DNA from: Sedimentibacter sp. zth1
GTDB lineage: Bacteria > Bacillota > Clostridia > Tissierellales > Sedimentibacteraceae
Reading direction: 5' to 3'
NCBI RefSeq assembly: GCF_017352195.1
Contig: NZ_CP071445.1
Coordinates: 124,001 to 188,000, forward strand
Length of the DNA stretch: 64,000 bases
Each line of letters starts with the position of its first letter. The stretch's first letter is position 1. The translations under genes were made by a program, and so were the position numbers. Of the stretch, positions 6,729 through 45,723 are shown one piece after another. Under the pieces are notes generated by a model, which was given only the letters and a program-made list of their open reading frames with translations, did no database searches and was not told the origin of the DNA.

Positions 6729-7097
6729 GTGCTTAAAAAAGTAAATAGAAATCAAAAAAGAGTTAACAGGCACAACAAAATTAGAAATAAAATTGTAGGA
6801 ACTCCTGAGAGACCAAGACTAAATGTATATAGAAGCTCTAAGAACATATATGCTCAAGTTATTGATGATGTAACAGGTACTACTATTACTTCAGCTTCAA
6901 CAAAAGATAAGGAAATAGTAGCTAAAGTTACTGAATTAAATAAAACTGAAGCAGCTAAGCTTGTGGGTGCTGAAGTTGCTAAGAAAGCAAATGAAAAAGG
7001 TATAAAATCAGTTGTGTTTGATAGAGGCGGATATTTATATCATGGTAGAGTGAAATCACTTGCAGATGCTGCAAGAGAAAATGGACTTGAATTTTAA
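6729..7097 (+). CDS. rplR: 50S ribosomal protein L18 (GTG start)
   Basis: 122 aa starting at GTG after AAAGGAG. The C-terminal segment [24 protein letters not shown] (read as two overlapping family motifs) is characteristic of L18, which binds 5S rRNA together with L5. Normal order rplF-rplR-rpsE. Confidence 0.96.
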
Positions 7098-7112
7098 GAA
7101 GGAGGTAAGGCA

Positions 7113-7622
7113 ATGGAACGTGGACGTATGGAAGCAAACCAAACAGATGAGTTTAAAGATAAACTTATAACTATCAACCGTGTAACAAAAGTTGTTAAAG
7201 GTGGTAGAAACTTCAGATTTTCTGCATTAGTGGTTGTAGGTAATGAAAACGGCCAAGTTGGTGTTGGTATGGCAAAAGCTATAGAAATACCAGATGCTAT
7301 TAGAAAAGCTAAACAAGATGCTATGAAAAGAATGATTGAAGTGCCAATACAAAACACAACCGTACCTCATGAGATGGTTGGAGTGTTTGGCGCTGGTAGA
7401 GTTCTTATTAAACCTGCAAAAGAAGGTACTGGAATTATAGCTGGTGGCCCTGTTCGTGCGGTTTTAGAACTTGCAGGAATTAAAGATATAAGAACTAAGT
7501 CTCTAGGATCAAATAATCCTAAGAACATGGTGAGTGCAACAATAGAAGCCTTAAAATCCCTAAAGAAACCTGAAGATGTAGCAAAAATTAGAGGGAAATC
7601 AGTAGAAGAGATTTTAGGTTAA
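7113..7622 (+). CDS. rpsE: 30S ribosomal protein S5
   Basis: 169 aa. N-terminal double-stranded RNA-binding-like domain with [20 protein letters not shown], followed by the S5 C-terminal domain ([19 protein letters not shown]). S5 acts in mRNA unwinding and decoding accuracy. The AAGGAGGT site lies at the end of rplR. No sequence change in the loop linked to spectinomycin resistance can be judged by eye. Confidence 0.97.
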
Positions 7623-7832: not shown

Positions 7833-8273
7833 ATGAAACTTCATGAATTAAAACCTAATCCTGGTAGTAACAAAAACAGAAAAAGATTAGGAAGAGGTAC
7901 TGCTTCAGGACAAGGTAAAACTGCTGGTAGAGGACAAGATGGTCAAAATTCTCGTTCAGGTGGTGGTGTTAGACCTGGTTTTGAAGGTGGACAGATGCCT
8001 CTTTACAGAAGACTTCCAAAAAGAGGATTCACAAATATTTTTGCTACTAGATATGCAGAGATAAATGTTGAAGTATTAAATAGATTTGAAGATGGAGCAG
8101 AAATCACTCCAGAACTTTTAAAAGAAACAGGTATACTAAAGAAACAGCTGGATGGAGTAAAAGTTTTAGGAAATGGTGAAATCATAAAAAAACTAACAGT
8201 AAAAGCGAATAAATTTAGTAAATCTGCAGTTGAAAAGATTGAGGCTGCTGGTGGAAAAGTAGAGGTGATCTAA
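7833..8273 (+). CDS. rplO: 50S ribosomal protein L15
   Basis: 146 aa. The glycine/arginine-rich N-terminus ([20 protein letters not shown]) and the [20 protein letters not shown] segment are typical of L15, which threads into 23S rRNA. AAGGAGGTG precedes the ATG. Stops one base before the secY start, so secY is translationally coupled. Confidence 0.97.
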
Positions 8274-8274
8274 G

Positions 8275-9549
8275 TTGTTTGAAACAATGAAGAATGCATG
8301 GAAAATACCTGATTTACGAAAAAGAATACTTTTTACGTTAATGATGATAGTCATTTACAGGTTTGGTGCGGTAATACCAGTACCATTTATCGATCGTAGT
8401 GTTGTAGCACAAATGTTTACAAACTCAGGCGGGGGCGGAGGAATTTTGGATTTCTTTGACCTAATGGCTGGTGGAGCATTTAAAGATTTTACAATATTTG
8501 CGTTAAATATTTACCCTTACATTACATCATCAATAATTCTTCAGTTGCTAACTATAGTAATACCAAAGCTTGAAGAAGTATTCAAAGCTGAAGATGGAAA
8601 GAAAAAAATGGGTCAATATACAAGATATTTGACAGTAATTTTAGCTTTGATTCAAGCTGTTGCTTATAGCGTAGGTTTTTTCAATAGAGCAATTATTGAT
8701 AAGAGCTTTTTCTCAATAACAGTTGTTGTAATAGTGTTAACAGCAGGTACAGCATTTTTAATGTGGCTTGGTGAACAAATTACAGATAAGGGTATTGGAA
8801 ATGGTATATCAATTATTATATTTGCTGGTATTATTTCGAGAATACCAATAGATATAGGCAATGTTGTTTATTCATTCCAAGTAGGAACTGCAAGAATTCA
8901 CGAATTAATCATATTCTTAATATTTGCAGTAGCAATAGTAATTGGTGTAATTGCTGTTCAACAGGGTGAAAGAAGAATACCTGTTCAATATGCAAAAAGA
9001 GTTGTAGGTAGAAAAATGTATGGTGGTCAAAACACACATATTCCAATGAAAGTTCTTATGGCAGGAGTAATGCCTGTAATATTTGCTTCAACAATATTGG
9101 CTTTACCACAAACATTAGCATTTTTCGTTCCAAGTTGGACAGATGGTTTAACTAAGTGGTTTTCAACAACTGGTAATCCAGGTAAGTGGATATATTCGTT
9201 GGTAAATATACTATTTGTTATATTCTTCACATATTTCTATACAGCAATACAATTTAATCCATTTGAGTATGCAAATAACTTGAAAGAAAATGGTGGTTTC
9301 ATTCCTGGTATTAGACCTGGAAGACCAACAACAGAATTTTTAACAAAGGTATTGAATAGAGTTACAATCGTAGGAGCAGTTTCTCTTGCAATTATAGCTA
9401 CAATACCAACATTAGTACTTTCATTCACTCACCTTAAAATTTATTTTGGTGGAACTGCGCTTTTAATCGTAACAGGTGTTGCTTTGGAAACAATGAAACA
9501 ATTAGAAGCTCATATGTTGATGAGACACTATAAAGGATTTTTAAAATAA
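8275..9549 (+). CDS. secY: Protein translocase subunit SecY (TTG start)
   Basis: 424 aa with about ten hydrophobic membrane segments; it forms the SecYEG channel for secretion and membrane insertion. Motifs include YRFGAVIPVPFID near the N-terminus, the GNGISIIIFAGI stretch and the conserved cytosolic loop GERRIPVQYAKR, which contacts SecA and ribosomes. The TTG start follows an AGAGGTGATC site inside the end of rplO. Translation coupling to L15 is the usual arrangement. Confidence 0.97.
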   Translation: MFETMKNAWKIPDLRKRILFTLMMIVIYRFGAVIPVPFIDRSVVAQMFTNSGGGGGILDFFDLMAGGAFKDFTIFALNIYPYITSSIILQLLTIVIPKLEEVFKAEDGKKKMGQYTRYLTVILALIQAVAYSVGFFNRAIIDKSFFSITVVVIVLTAGTAFLMWLGEQITDKGIGNGISIIIFAGIISRIPIDIGNVVYSFQVGTARIHELIIFLIFAVAIVIGVIAVQQGERRIPVQYAKRVVGRKMYGGQNTHIPMKVLMAGVMPVIFASTILALPQTLAFFVPSWTDGLTKWFSTTGNPGKWIYSLVNILFVIFFTYFYTAIQFNPFEYANNLKENGGFIPGIRPGRPTTEFLTKVLNRVTIVGAVSLAIIATIPTLVLSFTHLKIYFGGTALLIVTGVALETMKQLEAHMLMRHYKGFLK

Positions 9550-9579
9550 TAATTAAAAATCAAATCGAGGAAATAAAAA

Positions 9580-10227
9580 ATGAGAGCTATATTATTAGGA
9601 CCTCCTGGTGCTGGTAAAGGCACACAGGCAGAAACTATAGTAAATGAATTTAAAATTCCACATGTTTCAACTGGAGACATGTTTAGAAAAAACATAAAAG
9701 AACAGACACAACTTGGTAAAAAGGTAAAAAGTTATCTTGATAAAGGTGCTTTAGTACCTGATGAGTTAACTGTTGAAATTGTGAAAGATAGAATTTCACA
9801 AGTTGATTGTAAAAATGGATTTCTACTTGATGGTTTTCCAAGAACACTTGAACAAGCGAATGCTTTAGACAATGTTCTTTCAGAATTAGGTCAAAAATTA
9901 GACTATGTAATAAACATTGAAGTAGATTCAAAATTATTGATAGACAGAGCAGTTGGTAGAAGAATATGTAAAGATTGTGGTCAGACATATCATTTATTAT
10001 TCAACAAACCTACTAAAGAAGGTGTTTGTGACAAATGCGGTGGAGAACTATATCAACGTAAAGATGATACAGAAGAAACTGTAGCAAACAGAATCAATGT
10101 TTATCAAAATCAAACTCAACCATTAATTGAATATTATACAAACAAAGGTTGTATAATAAACATTAATGGCGAACAATCAATAGATAAAGTTAGCAGGGAT
10201 ATAATTTCAAATTTAAGAGGCGAGTAA
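9580..10227 (+). CDS. adk: Adenylate kinase, zinc-LID type
   Basis: 215 aa cytosolic enzyme interconverting ATP + AMP with 2 ADP. P-loop [10 protein letters not shown] lies at residues 7-16. The LID domain has four cysteines at 130, 133, 150 and 153, the zinc site found in Gram-positive adenylate kinases. The AMP-binding segment [10 protein letters not shown] is intact. A weaker CGAGGAAA site precedes the ATG. secY-adk-map is a conserved Firmicute order. Confidence 0.97.
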
Positions 10228-17923: not shown

Positions 17924-17952
17924 TTGCAATAAGTGACAAATTAAGTTATAAT
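17924..17952 (+). promoter_or_regulatory. SigA-type promoter of the CheW-CZB gene
   Basis: TTGCAA at 17924-17929, a 17-bp spacer and a perfect TATAAT at 17947-17952, directly after truA. It would start transcription about 28 bp before the start codon. Confidence 0.75.
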
Positions 17953-17986
17953 TATATAAGATTTTAACTGAAAGGAAATGTATGTT

Positions 17987-18889
17987 ATGTGCGAAGATTT
18001 TTTAGAAAAGGATGTAGAAAATATCAATCTTCCTTGGATACTATTTGAAGTTAATAAAAACACTTATGCTGTTAACAGTGAAAATGTTATATCTATTATA
18101 AAAATGACTGACGAAATAATTTCAGTCCCAGACATTCAAAATTATATTAGAGGGGTGATTGACCTTAGAGGAAGCATAATACCACTAATTGATTTAAAAA
18201 TAGTTTTTGGGGAGAAATCATATGATGAAATCATAGCTGATTATAAAAGTATGATTAACATTAGAAAAAAAGAGCATACTGCTTGGGTAAATGAATTAGA
18301 AAATTGTATAATAAATAGTAATGAATTTACTTTGTGCACAGATGCTCACGAATGTAATTTAGGAAAATGGTATTATAATTATAAACCACAAAACAATTCA
18401 TTACAATATCATATGAAAAAGTTAGAAGAGCCTCATGAAAAATTACATTCATATGCTTTAGAATACAATAATATTTTAAAAAACATAAAATTAGTAAATA
18501 AACAAGAAAAAATTGATGCTATATTTAAGGAGATAAAAGAAGAATTATATCCACAAATTATATCATTATTAGATGAATCAATAGATACAATGAAGCTAAA
18601 TCTAAAAGAAATGATTGTTGTTTTAGAATATAATAACTTTAAAGCTGGAATAATTGTTGATAAAGTTTCATCTATAGAAAATATTGAGAATTCATTTGAA
18701 CAAGGTGATATGGATGATTTATATTATAATACTAAATATGTAACAGGCATTGGTAAATCTGAAAAATCAAAGAAAAGTGTTATGAAAATAAATTTAGATA
18801 ATATTCTATCAAAAGCTGCACATATTGATTTAGAAGATTTAGAAAAAACTGAAGAAACTGAAGAAGTTGAGGAAATATTTAATAAATAG
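17987..18889 (+). CDS. CheW-like chemotaxis coupling protein with inserted CZB zinc-binding domain
   Basis: 300 aa, start set at ATG 17987 (the ATG at 17978 is only 2 bp from the AAAGGA site). Residues about 12-80 look like the first half of CheW (FEVNKNTYAVNSENVISI, RGVIDLRGSIIPLIDLK). A chemoreceptor zinc-binding (CZB) helical unit follows: H97 (HTAW), C123 in CNLGKW, and H150/H154 in HEKLH, matching the spacing of the family ligands. CheW-like sequence resumes near residue 200 (MIVVLEYNNFKAGIIVDKVSSI, i.e. the second barrel). The CZB thus interrupts the CheW fold rather than being attached at an end. CZB domains sense zinc or oxidants in other bacteria; here it may make receptor-CheA coupling respond to such a signal. 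The tail (residues 278-300) is acidic. Own promoter and terminator. Confidence 0.85.
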   Translation: MCEDFLEKDVENINLPWILFEVNKNTYAVNSENVISIIKMTDEIISVPDIQNYIRGVIDLRGSIIPLIDLKIVFGEKSYDEIIADYKSMINIRKKEHTAWVNELENCIINSNEFTLCTDAHECNLGKWYYNYKPQNNSLQYHMKKLEEPHEKLHSYALEYNNILKNIKLVNKQEKIDAIFKEIKEELYPQIISLLDESIDTMKLNLKEMIVVLEYNNFKAGIIVDKVSSIENIENSFEQGDMDDLYYNTKYVTGIGKSEKSKKSVMKINLDNILSKAAHIDLEDLEKTEETEEVEEIFNK

Positions 18890-18919: not shown

Positions 18920-18978
18920 GAAATAATATAGATTTTGTATAAATTTTATAAAAACAAAGTCGTATTATTTCTTTTTTT
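18920..18978 (+). terminator. Terminator of the CheW-CZB gene
   Basis: GAAATAATA (18920-18928) pairs with TATTATTTC (18963-18971), with an inner GATTTTGT/ACAAAGTC stem, followed by seven T. It separates the CheW-CZB unit from the flgM operon. Confidence 0.75.
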
Positions 18979-19025: not shown

Positions 19026-19052
19026 TAAACTTTATTCAAGTTTAGACGAAAT
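19026..19052 (+). promoter_or_regulatory. Sigma-28 (SigD/FliA)-type promoter of the flgM operon
   Basis: TAAA at 19026-19029, a 15-bp spacer, then GACGAAAT at 19045-19052. The consensus is TAAA-N15-GCCGATAT: the -35 and the spacing are exact, and the -10 matches six of eight. The site lies 41 bp upstream of flgM, in the expected place for late flagellar genes. Confidence 0.7.
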
Positions 19053-19093: not shown

Positions 19094-19387
19094 TTGAAAA
19101 TATCAAATATTGGTAGCTTCACTAGCTATCACACTAATACTAGTAAAATAAAGAAAACAGAAATTTCAAAGCCAAAAAACTTTGATTCAATTCAAATAAA
19201 TAAAAACACAAATGATATAACACAGAGCAATATTTCTTTAGATATATATAAAATAAAAGATAAGATACTTTCAGAAGTTAATTTAGATGCTAATGCAGAT
19301 CGAATAAAACAAATTAAAGAAAAAACAGAAAATAAAACTTATGATATCAATACTACAGAATTAGCAAAAATTCTTTTAAATATTTAA
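19094..19387 (+). CDS. flgM: Anti-sigma-28 factor FlgM (TTG start)
   Basis: 97 aa from TTG after AGGAAAGG; the only nearby ATG (19086) is closed at once by a stop. The C-terminal half has the FlgM pattern (RIKQIKEKTENKTYDINTTELAKILL), the helices that hold sigma-28; the N-terminal half is low-complexity, Lys/Asn/Thr-rich and probably disordered, as expected for export. It lies first in an operon whose promoter looks sigma-28 dependent, giving negative feedback. Confidence 0.85.
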   Translation: MKISNIGSFTSYHTNTSKIKKTEISKPKNFDSIQINKNTNDITQSNISLDIYKIKDKILSEVNLDANADRIKQIKEKTENKTYDINTTELAKILLNI

Positions 19388-19438: not shown

Positions 19439-19921
19439 ATGAATAAATTTGATGTATTATACGATATATTGCTTCAACAGCTTAAACTTTATGAAAGTTT
19501 TTTAATATTAGAAAACAAAAAATATGATGTTATCATAAATGACAATGTAGAGGATTTAGATAAAATAGTATCAGAAGAACAAGTATTCTTTTTGAAATCG
19601 AGAGGATTAGATTTAAAAAGAGAAGACATACTTAAACAATTGGGTATGGCAAATAAAACATTGTTAGAAGTGGTAAGTTTAATAGATGAAAATGAAAAAC
19701 ATAGATTTAAAGAAATGCATGCTAAAATATATAAAGTTCTTGCTGATTTTAAAGAAAAAAATACTCAATGTCAGGAACTTACACAAATTAGACTTCATAG
19801 AGTAAAAACTATAATTAATAAACTTGAGGAAAGTAAATCACAGAGTAAGCAATACTTTAAAGATGGAAATAAAGGTGAAGTTGATATAAATAAGGTAAAT
19901 TTAATTTCAAAAAAAATATAA
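19439..19921 (+). CDS. flgN: FlgN-family flagellar export chaperone
   Basis: 160 aa, predicted all-helical and coiled-coil. Divergent, but the N-terminus (LYDILLQQLKLYESFLILENKKYDVIINDNVEDLDKIVSEEQ) has the FlgN layout and it sits between flgM and flgK. FlgN keeps FlgK and FlgL unfolded for the flagellar type III exporter. GAAGGAAG precedes the ATG. The call depends partly on gene order. Confidence 0.8.
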   Translation: MNKFDVLYDILLQQLKLYESFLILENKKYDVIINDNVEDLDKIVSEEQVFFLKSRGLDLKREDILKQLGMANKTLLEVVSLIDENEKHRFKEMHAKIYKVLADFKEKNTQCQELTQIRLHRVKTIINKLEESKSQSKQYFKDGNKGEVDINKVNLISKKI

Positions 19922-19937: not shown

Positions 19938-21509
19938 ATGTTAAGATCTACTTTTTCAGGATTTCAAGTAGCAAACCGAGGTTTAAGTTCGAGCCAACGT
20001 TTATTAGATATAACAGCTCAAAACATAACTAACATTAATACAGAGGGTTATACAAGACAAAGATTAGATTTATATTCTATTGCATATAGCTCAGGGTCAT
20101 CTCAATTTTCAGCGCTTTATGGAGGAATTGGTAGAGGAGTTGGAGATTCAGGTGCATCACAAATTAGAGACCCATTTTTAGATATCAGATATAGAAGCGA
20201 AGCTGCTAAGGTTGGCGAACAAGATATTATGAAAGATGCCTTAAAAGATTTAACCGCTATATTTGATGAGGTAACTACAGATGGGTTAGACGCACAATTT
20301 TCAGATTTAATTAAGCAATTACATGCTTTAAGTGCAACCCCATCTGATCCGGTTATAGAAGGTGTAGTTAAAACATCTGCAACAATGGTTTCTCAATTGT
20401 TAAATCACTATTCGTCGCAAATTGAAACAGTTAAAGATCAACAAATAAGTTATTTAGAAAAAGATTCAATGAGTAAGGTAAACAATCTTTTATCTGCTAT
20501 TGGTGAATTAAATGACCAAATTAAACAGCAAAATGTGCATGGTGATAAGGCACTTGAGTTAAATGATAAAAGGAACTCTCTAATTGATGAATTATCTACA
20601 TATATGAATATTGATTTGATAAGAGAAAAAGAGAATATCGGGAATGATCAAGATGTTGAAGTTCTTACAATTGTGTCCAATGATATAACAGACGCAGCAG
20701 GAAATAAACTTCAATTAGTAAATCAATCTAAAGCAGCAAAGCTTAATGTAGATTCTACTGATAAAAATAACATTGTAGTTTCAATAGAAACATCAATAGA
20801 TGCTAATTTTAGTGATGGTGATGACATAACATCAAGCTTAAAAAAAGGTGAACTTGCTGGATACTTGAATTTCTTAAATAATAAGGCTGAATTTACAGAT
20901 GGAGCATATTCAACTGAGAATAGAGGTATTCAATTTTATGAAGGTATGCTAGATGGCGTAGCAAGAGAATTTACTAAAATGTTCAATGATGCCAATGAGT
21001 ATCCTGCTGGAACTAAAAAAGACCTTTTTGAAGCAGACGGTGGTGGAGAAATAACAGCTGCAAATATTAAAATTTCAGATGCTTGGAAAAATGCAAATGA
21101 TTGCTACATAACCAATACAAAACAGCCAGCTGCTGGTGATGACAATAAAGGTGCAAATGACAATATATTAACTATGATTGCTTTGTTTGATAAAAAAATC
21201 AGTTTTAATAGTAAAATAGATGGAACAGGTAATTTTGTATTTAGCGGCACAATTCAAGAGGGATTTTCACATGCGGCTTCAACTTTGGATTTACAAATTA
21301 ATCATGCACAAGATTTATATAAAAGCTATGGAGAAACTCTTATAACAATAGATACAAGTAGAGCATCTATATCTGGAGTATCAATGGATGAGGAGGGTAT
21401 TAATCTATTACACTACAATAAGTCATACAGCGCAGCTGCTAGACTTATGACAACATTAGATGATGCACTTAGTACATTAATAAATAATACGGGTAGAGTA
21501 GGATTATAG
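19938..21509 (+). CDS. flgK: Flagellar hook-associated protein 1 FlgK
   Basis: 523 aa. The N-terminal axial domain has FQVANRGLSSSQRLLDITAQNITNINTEGYTRQRL-type sequence (SGFQVANRGL, NITNINTEGYTRQR), and the C-terminal one SGVSMDEEGINLLHYNKSYSAAARLM. The middle (about 230-430) is variable, Asp/Asn-rich and solvent-exposed in this family. It forms the first hook-filament junction. AAGGAG precedes the ATG. Confidence 0.95.
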   Translation: MLRSTFSGFQVANRGLSSSQRLLDITAQNITNINTEGYTRQRLDLYSIAYSSGSSQFSALYGGIGRGVGDSGASQIRDPFLDIRYRSEAAKVGEQDIMKDALKDLTAIFDEVTTDGLDAQFSDLIKQLHALSATPSDPVIEGVVKTSATMVSQLLNHYSSQIETVKDQQISYLEKDSMSKVNNLLSAIGELNDQIKQQNVHGDKALELNDKRNSLIDELSTYMNIDLIREKENIGNDQDVEVLTIVSNDITDAAGNKLQLVNQSKAAKLNVDSTDKNNIVVSIETSIDANFSDGDDITSSLKKGELAGYLNFLNNKAEFTDGAYSTENRGIQFYEGMLDGVAREFTKMFNDANEYPAGTKKDLFEADGGGEITAANIKISDAWKNANDCYITNTKQPAAGDDNKGANDNILTMIALFDKKISFNSKIDGTGNFVFSGTIQEGFSHAASTLDLQINHAQDLYKSYGETLITIDTSRASISGVSMDEEGINLLHYNKSYSAAARLMTTLDDALSTLINNTGRVGL

Positions 21510-21519
21510 GAGGAAATAT

Positions 21520-22551
21520 ATGAGAGTCACCAATAAAATGATAACAAGTAGATATAGTAGAGATTTGAATAAAAGTTTATCAGATCTTAATACTCTAAGT
21601 CAAAAGGTTGAAACAGGAAGAAAATTTCAAACGGGAGCAGAAGATCCCATAGGGGCAGTAAAAGCGTATAGACTTAGAAGAGAGTATTATAAAAATAAAA
21701 ATTATGATACTAACTTAAAAGAAGCTGATTCTACTTTAACATCTGCAGAAGGTAATCTAATGCAGCTTAATAAAAATCTACAAGCTATTCATACAAGTTG
21801 CTTAAAAGGTATAAATGGAACTATGACACTTGATGAAAGAGAAATAATATCAAATGAATTAAAAAACATACAGCATTCAATTGTAACTACATTAAATTCT
21901 GAATTTAATGACAAATATTTATTTAGTGGTAACAGTATGAGTACACCACCGTTTTCAGTAAGTAATGATAATCATCTTCTTTACAAAGGTGTTGATGTTT
22001 CAATAGCTGACCAAAATGCAACTGCTGGTAGCGATGAGAAAAAGGCATATGATGCGTTGGTAGAATTATCAAAAGAAAATGTATATTTAGATATCGGGCT
22101 ATCGTTAAAAGTAAATCCTGATAGTTCAATAGATAAAAACAGTGTATTTGATATTGGAATACCTGGAATAAATATATTAGGATTTGGTAAAGATTCAACA
22201 ACTGGTATAAGCAAAAACGTATATGATACAATAACCAGTATTTGTGATGAGCTAGAAGATTCAAACTTCTCTATGAATTCTATAAGCCCATACTTAGATA
22301 CATTTAATGACCAAAAAAATGATATATTAAAAGAAATAACATCAATAGGTTCAAAGTCACAGTATATAGATTTTCTAAAATCTAGAACTGAAAACAACAA
22401 TATAAACTTAAATAGCAAAATGTTTGAGGTGGAATGTGTAGATCCTGCCGAAGCAATAATGGATTGGAAAATGCAAGAGTATTCATATAATGCAGCTTTG
22501 CAAATGGGTATGAAAGTAATTCAGCCAAGTTTTCTTGACTTTATGAGATAA
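21520..22551 (+). CDS. flgL: Flagellar hook-associated protein 3 FlgL
   Basis: 343 aa. N-terminus MRVTNKMITSRYSRDLNKSL and VETGRKFQTGAEDPIGAVKA are flagellin-type; the C-terminus includes DPAEAIMDWKMQEYSYNAAL. Second hook-filament junction protein. AGGAGG 5 bp upstream; 10 bp after flgK. Shorter central part than FlgK. Confidence 0.95.
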   Translation: MRVTNKMITSRYSRDLNKSLSDLNTLSQKVETGRKFQTGAEDPIGAVKAYRLRREYYKNKNYDTNLKEADSTLTSAEGNLMQLNKNLQAIHTSCLKGINGTMTLDEREIISNELKNIQHSIVTTLNSEFNDKYLFSGNSMSTPPFSVSNDNHLLYKGVDVSIADQNATAGSDEKKAYDALVELSKENVYLDIGLSLKVNPDSSIDKNSVFDIGIPGINILGFGKDSTTGISKNVYDTITSICDELEDSNFSMNSISPYLDTFNDQKNDILKEITSIGSKSQYIDFLKSRTENNNINLNSKMFEVECVDPAEAIMDWKMQEYSYNAALQMGMKVIQPSFLDFMR

Positions 22552-22615: not shown

Positions 22616-23230
22616 ATGTTGGAACCTTTAATAGAAATTAGAAGTATTCCGATGAGCATTGAGTATAAAATTCGTAATGCTACAATTGAATTAGCGTCTG
22701 GAGATGCAAATTTAGAGATTAATAGAGATAAAAATGGGTTGCAAATAAAAATGCAACCAGCTAAAATTAATATTGATACATTTAATGCAAGAAATTCTAT
22801 GGAAACTAAATCTCCTTTGCTTTCTATAGAAAAGTTTGCAAAAGATGGTATAAAAGCTGGATATGAGGCTACAGCTGATTTTGCAAAAGAGGGAGAAATG
22901 CTTATGGACATATACTTAGACAATGATGTTTTTGCTAAAATAGCTAGTGAAAGATTAAAAAGTGATGTGCAGTTTAATTTAGGTTTTACACCAAGTGAAC
23001 CAGTAGAACTAGATTATCAAGAAGGTGATTTATCTATTAAATACGAAATGGATAGACTAAATTTTGATTGGAAAATGAGCAGACCAGAATTAGAGTTTAC
23101 ACCTGGTGATATAGAACTTTTAATAAAAGAGTATGCTAGAGTTGAACTTGAATATATAGGTTCACCTTTGTATGTACCACCAAGTGCTAATCCTGATTAC
23201 GAACCAAAATTTATAAACACAAAAGCATAA
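22616..23230 (+). CDS. DUF6470 family protein (YviE-like)
   Basis: 204 aa. Begins MLEPLIEIRSIPMSIEYKI and contains alternating basic and acidic segments without membrane spans or a signal peptide. YviE-type proteins occupy the same place between flgL and fliW in Bacillus and Clostridia. Their function is not established; a late flagellar role is inferred only from position. GGGGTGA is the likely ribosome site. Confidence 0.8.
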   Translation: MLEPLIEIRSIPMSIEYKIRNATIELASGDANLEINRDKNGLQIKMQPAKINIDTFNARNSMETKSPLLSIEKFAKDGIKAGYEATADFAKEGEMLMDIYLDNDVFAKIASERLKSDVQFNLGFTPSEPVELDYQEGDLSIKYEMDRLNFDWKMSRPELEFTPGDIELLIKEYARVELEYIGSPLYVPPSANPDYEPKFINTKA

Positions 23231-23254: not shown

Positions 23255-23701
23255 ATGAACATTAATACAAAAGAATTTGGAGAAATAGAAATACAAGATA
23301 ATGATATAATCAATTTTAAAGGTAGTATTTATGGCTTTGAGAAATATAAAAAGTATGTGATTCTCAACAATTCTCCGGAAGATAGTATAATGTATTTACA
23401 GTCAGTAGAGAATGAGGATTTACATTTTGTAATTGTTGATCCATATGCTATTTTTCCCTTGTACACTCCAATATTAAATGATGAAGATTATAAAAATCTT
23501 GAAATTACAAAAGGTAAACACAATAAACTAAAATATATGCTTATAGCTGTTATATCAGAAAATATGAAAGACTCAGTAGTAAATCTAAAAAGTCCTATAG
23601 TTATTAATCCGGATAATAGGTTGGCAGTACAGTCAATTTTGCAAAATCAAGATTACTGCTTAAGATATCCTCTATTTCAAAAAAAAGAGGATGGTGAATA
23701 A
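23255..23701 (+). CDS. fliW: Flagellar assembly factor FliW
   Basis: 148 aa. FKGSIYGFEKYKKYVILNN near residue 21 and FVIVDPYAIFPLY near 57 match FliW. FliW binds both flagellin and CsrA and so releases flagellin mRNA from CsrA repression when flagellin is low. It ends directly at the csrA start, the conserved fliW-csrA pair. Confidence 0.93.
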   Translation: MNINTKEFGEIEIQDNDIINFKGSIYGFEKYKKYVILNNSPEDSIMYLQSVENEDLHFVIVDPYAIFPLYTPILNDEDYKNLEITKGKHNKLKYMLIAVISENMKDSVVNLKSPIVINPDNRLAVQSILQNQDYCLRYPLFQKKEDGE

Positions 23702-23929
23702 ATGCTAGTAATCAAAAGAAAGTTAAATGAATCAATATTAATTGGAGATAATATTGAGGTAATAGTTTCCGAAATTTCAGGAGATAAGATAAAGTTAGCT
23801 ATAAGTGCACCGAATGATATAAAAATAATGAGAAAAGAACTAAAAGAAACTTTAGATTTTAATAAGAATGCTACAAAAGTAATCGGCAAGTCAGACATAT
23901 CTAAGTTAAATGAAAAACTTAATAAGTAA
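23702..23929 (+). CDS. csrA: Carbon storage regulator / translational repressor CsrA
   Basis: 75 aa. MLVIKRKLNESILIGDNIEVIV and the following GDKIKLAISAP are diagnostic of CsrA, a dimer that binds GGA motifs over ribosome-binding sites. It begins with no gap after fliW; the GGATGGTGA at the end of fliW serves as its Shine-Dalgarno. No flagellin gene follows here, so the hag target is elsewhere. Confidence 0.96.
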   Translation: MLVIKRKLNESILIGDNIEVIVSEISGDKIKLAISAPNDIKIMRKELKETLDFNKNATKVIGKSDISKLNEKLNK

Positions 23930-44478: not shown

Positions 44479-45723
44479 GTGGAAAATGTTATTGAAGTTA
44501 AAAATATATCAGTAAAATATGGTACTACAACAGTTTTGAATAATATTAGCTTTGATGTACAAAAAGGCGAATTTTGCACCATAATTGGGCCAAACGGAGC
44601 TGGAAAATCTACAATACTTAAAAGTATTATGAAAAATATAGACATTGAGTCTGGTGACATTTTAATTAATCATAAAAGTATAAAAAATATTTCACACAAA
44701 GAAAAAGCATGTATGATTGGGTTTGTTCCTCAGGAGTACAATATAAGCTTTAATTTTAATGTGTACGATATTGTTGCAATGGGAAGAAATCCATACACTA
44801 AAAAATTTGGTAAATCACAATACGACGATAAAAAAATTATACAAGATGCATTGATTAAAACATCTACATTTTACTTGAAGGACAAAAATTTTAATGAACT
44901 TAGTGGTGGTGAAAAGCAAAGAGTCATTATAGCAAGGGCACTTGCACAGCAAACTAGTATTTTGGTATTGGATGAAGCTACATCAAATCTTGATATACAT
45001 CATCAGTTAGATATAATAGAATTAATATATTCTCTTAATAGAGAGGATAATTTGACAGTTTTAACTATTATGCATGATTTAAATTTATCTAGTAGATTTA
45101 GTGATAAAATTGTTTTGCTGAGTGACGAAGGTATTGTAAAAATAGGCACGCCAGATGATATAATAGATGAAAGTGTATTGAGGCAAGTATATGATATGGA
45201 AATGCTTGTTAGAGAAAATAAACTTTTGTCTTGTAAGGAAGTCGTTGCTCTTAGAGCTAGAAGGGCTAAGGACGATAAGAATAAAAATATTCACGTCATC
45301 TGCGGTGGAGGAACAGGAGAATATATAATTCAAAAGCTTTATTCTGAAAGATATAATGTTAGCTGTGGTGTTTTAAATGATGGAGACAGCGATTTAGAAA
45401 TATGTAAAAATTTAAGTATTAGATATGTTAAAGAACTACCTTTTACATCATTTAGTAAAGAGAGTATAGAAAAAAATAGAGAATTAATAAAAAAAAGCGA
45501 CATAGTAATTTTAACGGATGTTGCAATAGGTGAAGGTAATTTTGAGAATATAGAAATTTTAAGCTATTTAGATGATAAAAAAATTATAATTTTATATAAT
45601 AGCAAAAGAGATTTTGTAAACGGAAAATGTGAAGAAATACTTGGAAAAATAAAAAGCAAAAAAAATGTTTGCGTTGCAATGAATTTAAAAGAGCTATTCA
45701 ATTTAGTAGAAGAAAAGAATTAG
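44479..45723 (+). CDS. btuD: Vitamin B12 ABC transporter ATPase with extra C-terminal domain (GTG start)
   Basis: 414 aa. Residues 1-250 are a FecE/BtuD ATPase: Walker A GPNGAGKST, signature LSGGEKQR, Walker B ILVLDEATSNLD. From residue 271 a second domain begins with IHVICGGGTGEYI, a glycine-rich beta-alpha start like a Rossmann-type nucleotide-binding fold, followed by CGVLNDGDSDLEICKNL and SDIVILTDVAIGEGNFENIE. Usual ATPases of this family end near residue 255. The extension might act on the corrinoid or sense a cofactor; this is not shown. GTG start after AGAGGTG. Confidence 0.88.
   Translation: MENVIEVKNISVKYGTTTVLNNISFDVQKGEFCTIIGPNGAGKSTILKSIMKNIDIESGDILINHKSIKNISHKEKACMIGFVPQEYNISFNFNVYDIVAMGRNPYTKKFGKSQYDDKKIIQDALIKTSTFYLKDKNFNELSGGEKQRVIIARALAQQTSILVLDEATSNLDIHHQLDIIELIYSLNREDNLTVLTIMHDLNLSSRFSDKIVLLSDEGIVKIGTPDDIIDESVLRQVYDMEMLVRENKLLSCKEVVALRARRAKDDKNKNIHVICGGGTGEYIIQKLYSERYNVSCGVLNDGDSDLEICKNLSIRYVKELPFTSFSKESIEKNRELIKKSDIVILTDVAIGEGNFENIEILSYLDDKKIIILYNSKRDFVNGKCEEILGKIKSKKNVCVAMNLKELFNLVEEKN

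Follow-up and report, generated by a model that had tools for sequence, protein, structure and literature searches.

A gene at positions 17987-18889 of a stretch of the Sedimentibacter sp. zth1 genome (64,000 nucleotides, called the window here) raised the question of whether a zinc-sensing CZB domain sits inside the fold of the chemotaxis coupling protein CheW, and what such a protein would do. A sequence-only reading had placed a CZB domain between two CheW halves and had implied that the combination is rare. The implied rarity did not hold. "CheW-CZB" was named in 2021 as one of seven CZB subgroups, accounting for 1.4% of 10,140 sequences and being most abundant in Clostridia (PMC8262984), and CheW-CZB was already listed as known in 2023, when CheW-fused sensors were proposed as direct inputs (PMC10653840). 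The window protein contains a CheW-like and a CZB domain and no other, as this subgroup is defined; it is a member of an already named kind and not new in kind. It shares with the published subgroup the presence of both domains in one cytosolic protein; its homologues mostly have Ala at position 2 of the alpha-3 motif and all have Gly at position 4, and the window protein has Asn at position 2. In the literature text on CheW-CZB covered by our search, figures and supplements aside, neither a description of the insertion topology nor an experiment was found, and the text consulted of PMC8262984 did not deal with insertion topology, origin or receptor contacts. What is added here is the insertion topology, the breadth of the inserted form, its place next to flgM and the finding that the acid corresponding to D107 of Escherichia coli CheW is lost.

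The CheW fold and the inserted CZB domain

The gene and the parts of its product are as follows, all on the forward strand.

17971..17976, forward: ribosome-binding site AAAGGA, read directly
17987..18889, forward: cheW-CZB gene, 300 amino acids (open reading frame translation and Pfam)
18035..18214, forward: CheW N-terminal half, residues 17-76, five strands (Pfam, AlphaFold2 model, profile alignment)
18221..18601, forward: inserted CZB helical bundle, residues 79-205 (Pfam, AlphaFold2 model, structure alignment, CZB alignment)
18275..18277, forward: H97, zinc ligand by homology
18353..18355, forward: C123, zinc ligand by homology and predicted redox cysteine
18434..18436, forward: H150, zinc ligand by homology
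18446..18448, forward: H154, zinc ligand by homology
18611..18823, forward: CheW C-terminal half, residues 209-279 (AlphaFold2 model, structure and profile alignment)
18671..18673, forward: S229, at the position of E. coli CheW D107 by alignment, where the acid is lost across the CheW-CZB family
18833..18886, forward: acidic tail at the C-terminus (residues 283-300), which the nine homologues compared lack or have in a different form

The frame has an alternative, longer start at 17978, and the start at 17987 was preferred because the AAAGGA sequence fits it better. In Pfam searches with the window protein, CheW (PF01584) matched at 8e-22 and 77.8 bits against a cut-off of 23.5, in two stretches of which the best covered residues 18-87, and CZB (PF13682) matched residues 97-159 at 2.6e-14 and 53.8 bits against a cut-off of 29.4.

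The structure of the protein was predicted with AlphaFold2 from 80 sequences, giving a mean pLDDT of 88.8 and a pTM of 0.80; an earlier run on 10 rows only had modelled the CheW part poorly (mean pLDDT 63.3). The model has strands at residues 17-22, 25-30, 34-39, 54-60 and 63-69 before the insert, helices at 79-110, 124-131, 137-144, 147-165 and 172-205 within it, and strands at 209-215, 218-224, 226-231, 233-238, 252-258 and 264-268 after it. Block confidence of the strands after the insert was 86-97, except for 78 at residues 231-240 and 59 at 241-250. Since the 80-sequence alignment was without any plain CheW, the completed barrel is not owed to plain CheWs in the input.

The top Foldseek matches of the model in the PDB were CheW chains (9a72_B, 9.0e-08; 2qdl_B, 3.5e-07; 6s1k_C, 3.5e-07). 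When residues 13-279 of the model were aligned with Thermotoga CheW 2ch4_W by VIA-align, 136 of 139 residues were aligned across the insert (Z 17.4, rmsd 2.4). This coverage, together with the six predicted strands, bears out the earlier expectation that residues 200-275 complete the CheW barrel, and the predicted model contains the complete CheW double-barrel fold. Residues 9-77 and 83-155 of E. coli CheW were matched by the 80-sequence profile as two separate stretches, and only the E. coli residues 78-82 between them are replaced by the insert. The window protein therefore has the whole barrel in common with plain CheW (Thermotoga maritima 2ch4_W and E. coli 2ho9), which has a 5-residue stretch where the window protein has an insert of 127 residues; the receptor-contact acid is lost in the window protein.

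The insert itself aligned over residues 82-204 with chain 3t9o_B of the E. coli DgcZ CZB (Z 11.4, rmsd 2.7, 116 of 120 residues), a chain that ranked 19th in Foldseek (probability 1.00, E 0.012), and positions 79-165 of the 80-sequence profile matched the CZB chain 3T9O. Because several other helical bundles equalled or exceeded this structural score (4zvc_A, Z 12.5; 5xsd_L, Z 12.2), the sequence profile and the ligands, and not the Z value, are taken as the basis of the CZB assignment. Pfam profiles, the AlphaFold2 model and the homologues described below all agree in placing CZB between two CheW halves, and in the predicted structure a complete CZB domain divides the CheW fold of the window protein in two. 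In DgcZ, whose four ligands align and whose bundle matches, and in Helicobacter pylori TlpD, likened to the window CZB from the paper only, CZB lies at the end of a cyclase or a receptor, whereas in the window protein it lies inside the adaptor fold.

Putative zinc ligands and distribution of the family

The source genome (3.13 Mb, one contig) encodes one plain CheW, one CheV (CheW plus receiver), one CheA-sized frame of 687 amino acids with a CheW match and the one cheW-CZB; no second CZB was found in it at E up to 0.001. CheV resembles the window protein in joining a CheW domain to a second domain, and differs in that this is a C-terminal receiver, for which the window protein showed no Pfam match.

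Among 100 genomes of relatives, CZB was present in 30, and in five of these the CZB lay in a frame of 287-305 amino acids (the source genome is included in both counts). In a sample of 391 genomes of the class, again with the source genome, full-length matches with E no higher than 1e-20 were obtained in six. The same sample held 49 CZB matches in 45 genomes, eight of them in frames shorter than 400 amino acids; six of these eight belonged to the six genomes with full-length matches, and the remaining two (202 and 294 amino acids) looked by sight like a CZB-only protein and a receptor piece. No terminal fusion of CZB to CheW was found among the CZB frames shorter than 400 amino acids in this sample. 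Mutual exclusion with CZB chemoreceptors is not claimed: two of ten genomes with CheW-CZB (G025 and G353) have another, longer CZB frame, a co-occurrence counted by frame lengths that roughly agrees with the general frequency.

A wider collection scan confirmed 284 relatives. The best 80 of these were analysed, and comprised 44 from Bacillota, 33 from 12 other named phyla and three without a phylum name, the names being taken from record naming via NCBI ranks, with many metagenome bins that are possibly misnamed. The four nearest relatives (L053-L056) are 35-37% identical to the window protein and are called the Sedimentibacter group here; they come from three Sedimentibacter and Firmicutes bacterium UBA6113, one genus group of the window's family. 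All 80 members of an alignment consisting of the window, 78 loci and L047 (L127 and L131, cut by contig ends, were dropped) matched CheW and CZB and no other Pfam family at E up to 0.001, and G56 and D225, conserved in CheW, flank CZB in 80/80. By eye, at least 29 of 30 genomes with CheW-CZB had a plain-CheW-sized frame, and at least 27 of 30 had a CheW-matching frame of at least 600 amino acids, presumed to be CheA. On a Hydrogenedentes contig (L105), two CheW-CZB genes stand in tandem at about 6742-7559 and 7977-8819, the second scoring 204 bits with a start assigned by sight.

In trees of the CheW parts only, all 80 CheW-CZB fell on one side of a branch from the plain CheWs. The SH-aLRT value of this branch was 94, 84 and 70 against 31, 30 and 50 plain CheWs, respectively, dropping as divergent plain CheWs joined. 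L163 was excluded from the later trees and from the residue counts, and L160 and L162 were without a plain CheW row of 130-260 amino acids. The trees, built on few alignment columns, are compatible with a single origin of CheW-CZB and do not prove it; the family appears to be old and widespread. A local duplication of the plain cheW, which adjoins cheW-CZB in the Sedimentibacter group, was rejected as the source of the gene, because its CheW parts group with distant CheW-CZB and not with that neighbour.

The proposed zinc ligands do sit at H97, C123, H150 and H154, and they aligned with the H, C, H and H of DgcZ when the CZB part alone was used (the deposited DgcZ chain 4H54 has Ala at the Cys position). 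Their retention in homologues was also confirmed. Over 81 rows (the window and 80 loci), many of which are near-copies from Lacrimispora, Acetobacterium and Sedimentibacter, H150 and H154 were kept in 81/81, free of search bias, and C123 in 81/81 and H97 in 80/81, counts that are favoured because the two CZB peptide patterns of the collection scan contain H97 or C123. The C123 pattern is the only one that fits in 54 of the 80 loci, and H97 is still present in 53 of them. The single loss is in locus L113 (2888-3829), where Leu replaces H97 and the other three ligands are kept.

This near-invariance of the four ligands would also suit a structural or zinc-storing variant, in which zinc merely holds the bundle together and the scaffold tunes array packing without sensing, all the more as CZB zinc is held very tightly (PMC6715182). 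A purely structural role, however, would not need the same 3His/1Cys site and the GxWY motif that are present in all rows, and the CZBs that have been studied, TlpD and DgcZ, signal; we regard this explanation as improbable.

The window sequence departs from the family at two motif positions (18356-18376): N124 stands where 78/81 rows have Ala, and Y130 where 79/81 have Asp. N124 occupies position 2 of the alpha-3 motif (Ala in 78/81 rows; position 4 is Gly in 81/81), and poor conservation at position 2 is allowed by PMC8262984. Because both residues depart from near-invariant positions, the window CZB may be tuned differently. Taken with the divergence of the window protein from its nearest relatives, these changes could also be read as the mark of an ordinary CheW whose insert is a decaying passenger. 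The intact frame, the four ligands, the strong CZB score, the ordered prediction and the conservation in distant bacteria speak against decay, which we consider very improbable indeed.

Transcription signals and neighbouring genes

The sequence-only reading had given the gene its own SigA promoter and terminator at the head of a sigma-28 operon. The signals and genes found around it are listed below.

17924..17952, forward: SigA-like promoter TTGCAA-17-TATAAT (consensus scan)
18920..18978, forward: terminator-like hairpin at 18920-18971 followed by seven T (folding)
19026..19052, forward: sigma-28-type promoter-like site upstream of flgM (pattern and alignment with four related loci)
19094..19387, forward: flgM-like gene, TTG start uncertain (PF04316, 24.6 bits, just below the cut-off of 25)
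19439..19921, forward: flgN (PF05130, 69.4 bits)
19938..21509, forward: flgK (PF22638, 93.2 bits)
21520..22551, forward: flgL, named by place; Pfam gives the flagellin N-terminal region (PF00669, 54.5 bits)
22616..23230, forward: DUF6470 gene (153.4 bits)
23255..23701, forward: fliW (PF02623, 115.9 bits)
23702..23929, forward: csrA-like gene, 75 amino acids (frame; name by sight)

A SigA-like site is present at 17924-17952, but the region contains 18 such sites against 14.3 (sd 3.8) in shuffles, and since this number is not above chance, the site is weak evidence by itself. The AT-rich hairpin at 18920-18971 had a folding energy of -14.2 kcal/mol (z -3.95), and one of 200 shuffles was at least as stable; a strict terminator scan of the region found none.

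In the four loci of the Sedimentibacter group, the gene order is cheW, cheW-CZB, flgM, flgN, flgK, flgL, DUF6470-like, fliW and csrA, with a receptor gene between cheW and cheW-CZB in L054; fliW of L055 is untyped, since the longer of two overlapping frames was retained there. The place of the plain cheW is occupied by truA in the window, and the flagellar genes come directly after cheW-CZB. The sigma-28-like site before flgM matched the pattern in the window copy only, the four related loci being similar by alignment; GACGA is invariant in the sites of all five loci, and L055 has TAAT for TAAA. In a separate search of the window with an exact sigma-28 pattern, the only match lay inside an unrelated gene. 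Upstream of the plain cheW, an exact sigma-28 site occurs in L053 and L056, with the same string in L055 and a variant in L054 by sight. From these sites and the gene order, the CheW-CZB gene of the Sedimentibacter group probably belongs to a sigma-28 regulon, and in the window the upstream part with the sigma-28 site and cheW has probably gone, with a SigA-like site in its stead. The proposed position at the head of a sigma-28 operon is right as to gene order; the gene looks, however, like a transcription unit of its own, followed by a separate sigma-28-type site.

Outside the Sedimentibacter group, 16 of 76 loci, many of which are short, matched any of 12 chemotaxis or flagellar reference proteins, and 60 matched none. 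In five of the 80 loci (L054, L058, L079, L092 and L098), cheW-CZB has a same-strand neighbour at a distance of 48-68 bases that encodes a chemoreceptor with an MCP signalling domain.

In L036, the plain cheW has two neighbours at 8452-9678, one of them ComFB-like (PF10719, 74.9 bits) and the other encoding a ParA-like ATPase (PF13614, 188.8 bits), and L039 has the same ComFB-like and ParA-like pair by sight. Elsewhere in the window (44479-45723), an ABC-type ATPase beside a permease gene has an extension of about 150 amino acids after its ATPase part, by sight.

Receptor contacts and the proposed role of CheW-CZB

In simulations, D107 of E. coli CheW forms a salt bridge with receptor R404, and R40 and E18 are the other two strong contacts (PMC6954272). 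The D107 position has Asp or Glu in 1/80 CheW-CZB versus 38/50 plain CheWs. The plain set consisted of 30 that were mostly the best-scoring of their genomes, with the acid in 26, and 20 lower-scoring ones hand-picked as a check, with the acid in 12, so that adding the latter weakens the contrast. The positions of R40 and E18 (K39 and P16 in the window protein) are not conserved in the plain CheWs either and are therefore uninformative on receptor binding. CheW-CZB keep R61 in 78/80, R71 in 79/80, G56 in 80/80 and D225 in 80/80, and the LRG..IP motif is relaxed (G62 in 55/80, P66 in 52/80), while the window protein itself retains R61, G62 and P66. The loss of this receptor-contact acid across the family suggests that CheW-CZB does not simply duplicate the ordinary receptor coupler.

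One way to account for this pattern is a CheA regulator independent of receptors, which would keep the CheA-facing surface, lose ordinary receptor binding and have CZB as its sole input, so as to cap, poison or, through CZB dimerisation, bridge the rings. The loss of the D107 acid in 79/80 while R61, D225 and G56 stay would agree with this, as would the fact that CZB helix alpha-1 is a known homodimer face (PMC8262984). D107 is, however, one contact known from simulation, plain CheWs vary there too (12/20 with the acid in the lower-scoring set), and receptor binding is not judgeable from the unconserved R40 and E18 positions. The receptor genes that directly adjoin cheW-CZB in 5/80 loci fit a role with receptors and speak against such independence, which we consider unlikely. 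A bolder formulation, that CheW-CZB is an ancient sensor-adaptor of single origin that gave up the ordinary receptor contact and conveys zinc or thiol-redox status to CheA rings past the chemoreceptors in about 13 named phyla, is likewise doubtful.

The reading we prefer, and think rather probable, is that CheW-CZB is a second, sensor-bearing adaptor of the array that lets zinc or thiol oxidation act on CheA. Its CheW barrel would dock in the CheA/CheW rings, and two long helices, which emerge from the barrel where E. coli CheW has the loop of residues 78-82, would carry the CZB bundle, which would bind zinc via H97, C123, H150 and H154. Oxidation of C123 or altered zinc occupancy would lead to local unfolding of the C123 segment and thereby shift helices 79-110 and 172-205, both of them directly connected to the barrel in the model. 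Such a shift would change the barrel or its ring contacts and drive CheA activity up or down without a dedicated receptor. For array docking, zinc binding, the nature of the signal and the sign of the output, this scheme is what we infer. The action of C123 unfolding on the barrel is transferred by analogy from TlpD, in which, as in the CZBs that have been studied, a Cys forms a redox lid over zinc, and 22 residues around it unfold in the Cys-to-Ala crystal (PMC6715182). The earlier proposal that zinc or an oxidant would directly change receptor-kinase coupling through the insert is plausible.

The preferred adaptor role is favoured by the presence of a full CheW and CZB in one chain, ligand conservation, the co-occurring plain CheW and CheA-sized frames, the adjoining flgM in the window and four related loci, the receptor gene beside it in 5/80 loci and two precedents. 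The first is TlpD, whose CZB uses a Cys-Zn switch to convert HOCl into a response of CheA, reversibly inactivating the signalling complex (PMC6715182). The second is Treponema denticola CheWS, a CheW-fused SAM sensor in the array, for which direct array input was likewise proposed (PMC10653840); it has a C-terminal CheR-like SAM domain, whereas the window protein has the inserted CZB, no CheR-like Pfam match and about 20 residues after the barrel. The lost D107 acid, the relaxed G62 and P66, the 60/76 loci without a reference match and the N124 and Y130 of the window protein count against the adaptor role. Judging by record titles, members of the family come from sediment and groundwater and also from the gut, so neutrophil bleach is unlikely to be the only signal. 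In bacteria of sediment and groundwater, the natural signal may be something other than HOCl, zinc status or a different thiol oxidant being equally likely.

The loss of the receptor-contact acid in 79/80 CheW-CZB leads to a specific prediction of how these proteins differ from plain CheW. CheW is commonly regarded as a passive linker, and a sensor within its fold raises the question of whether the adaptor itself can be an input.
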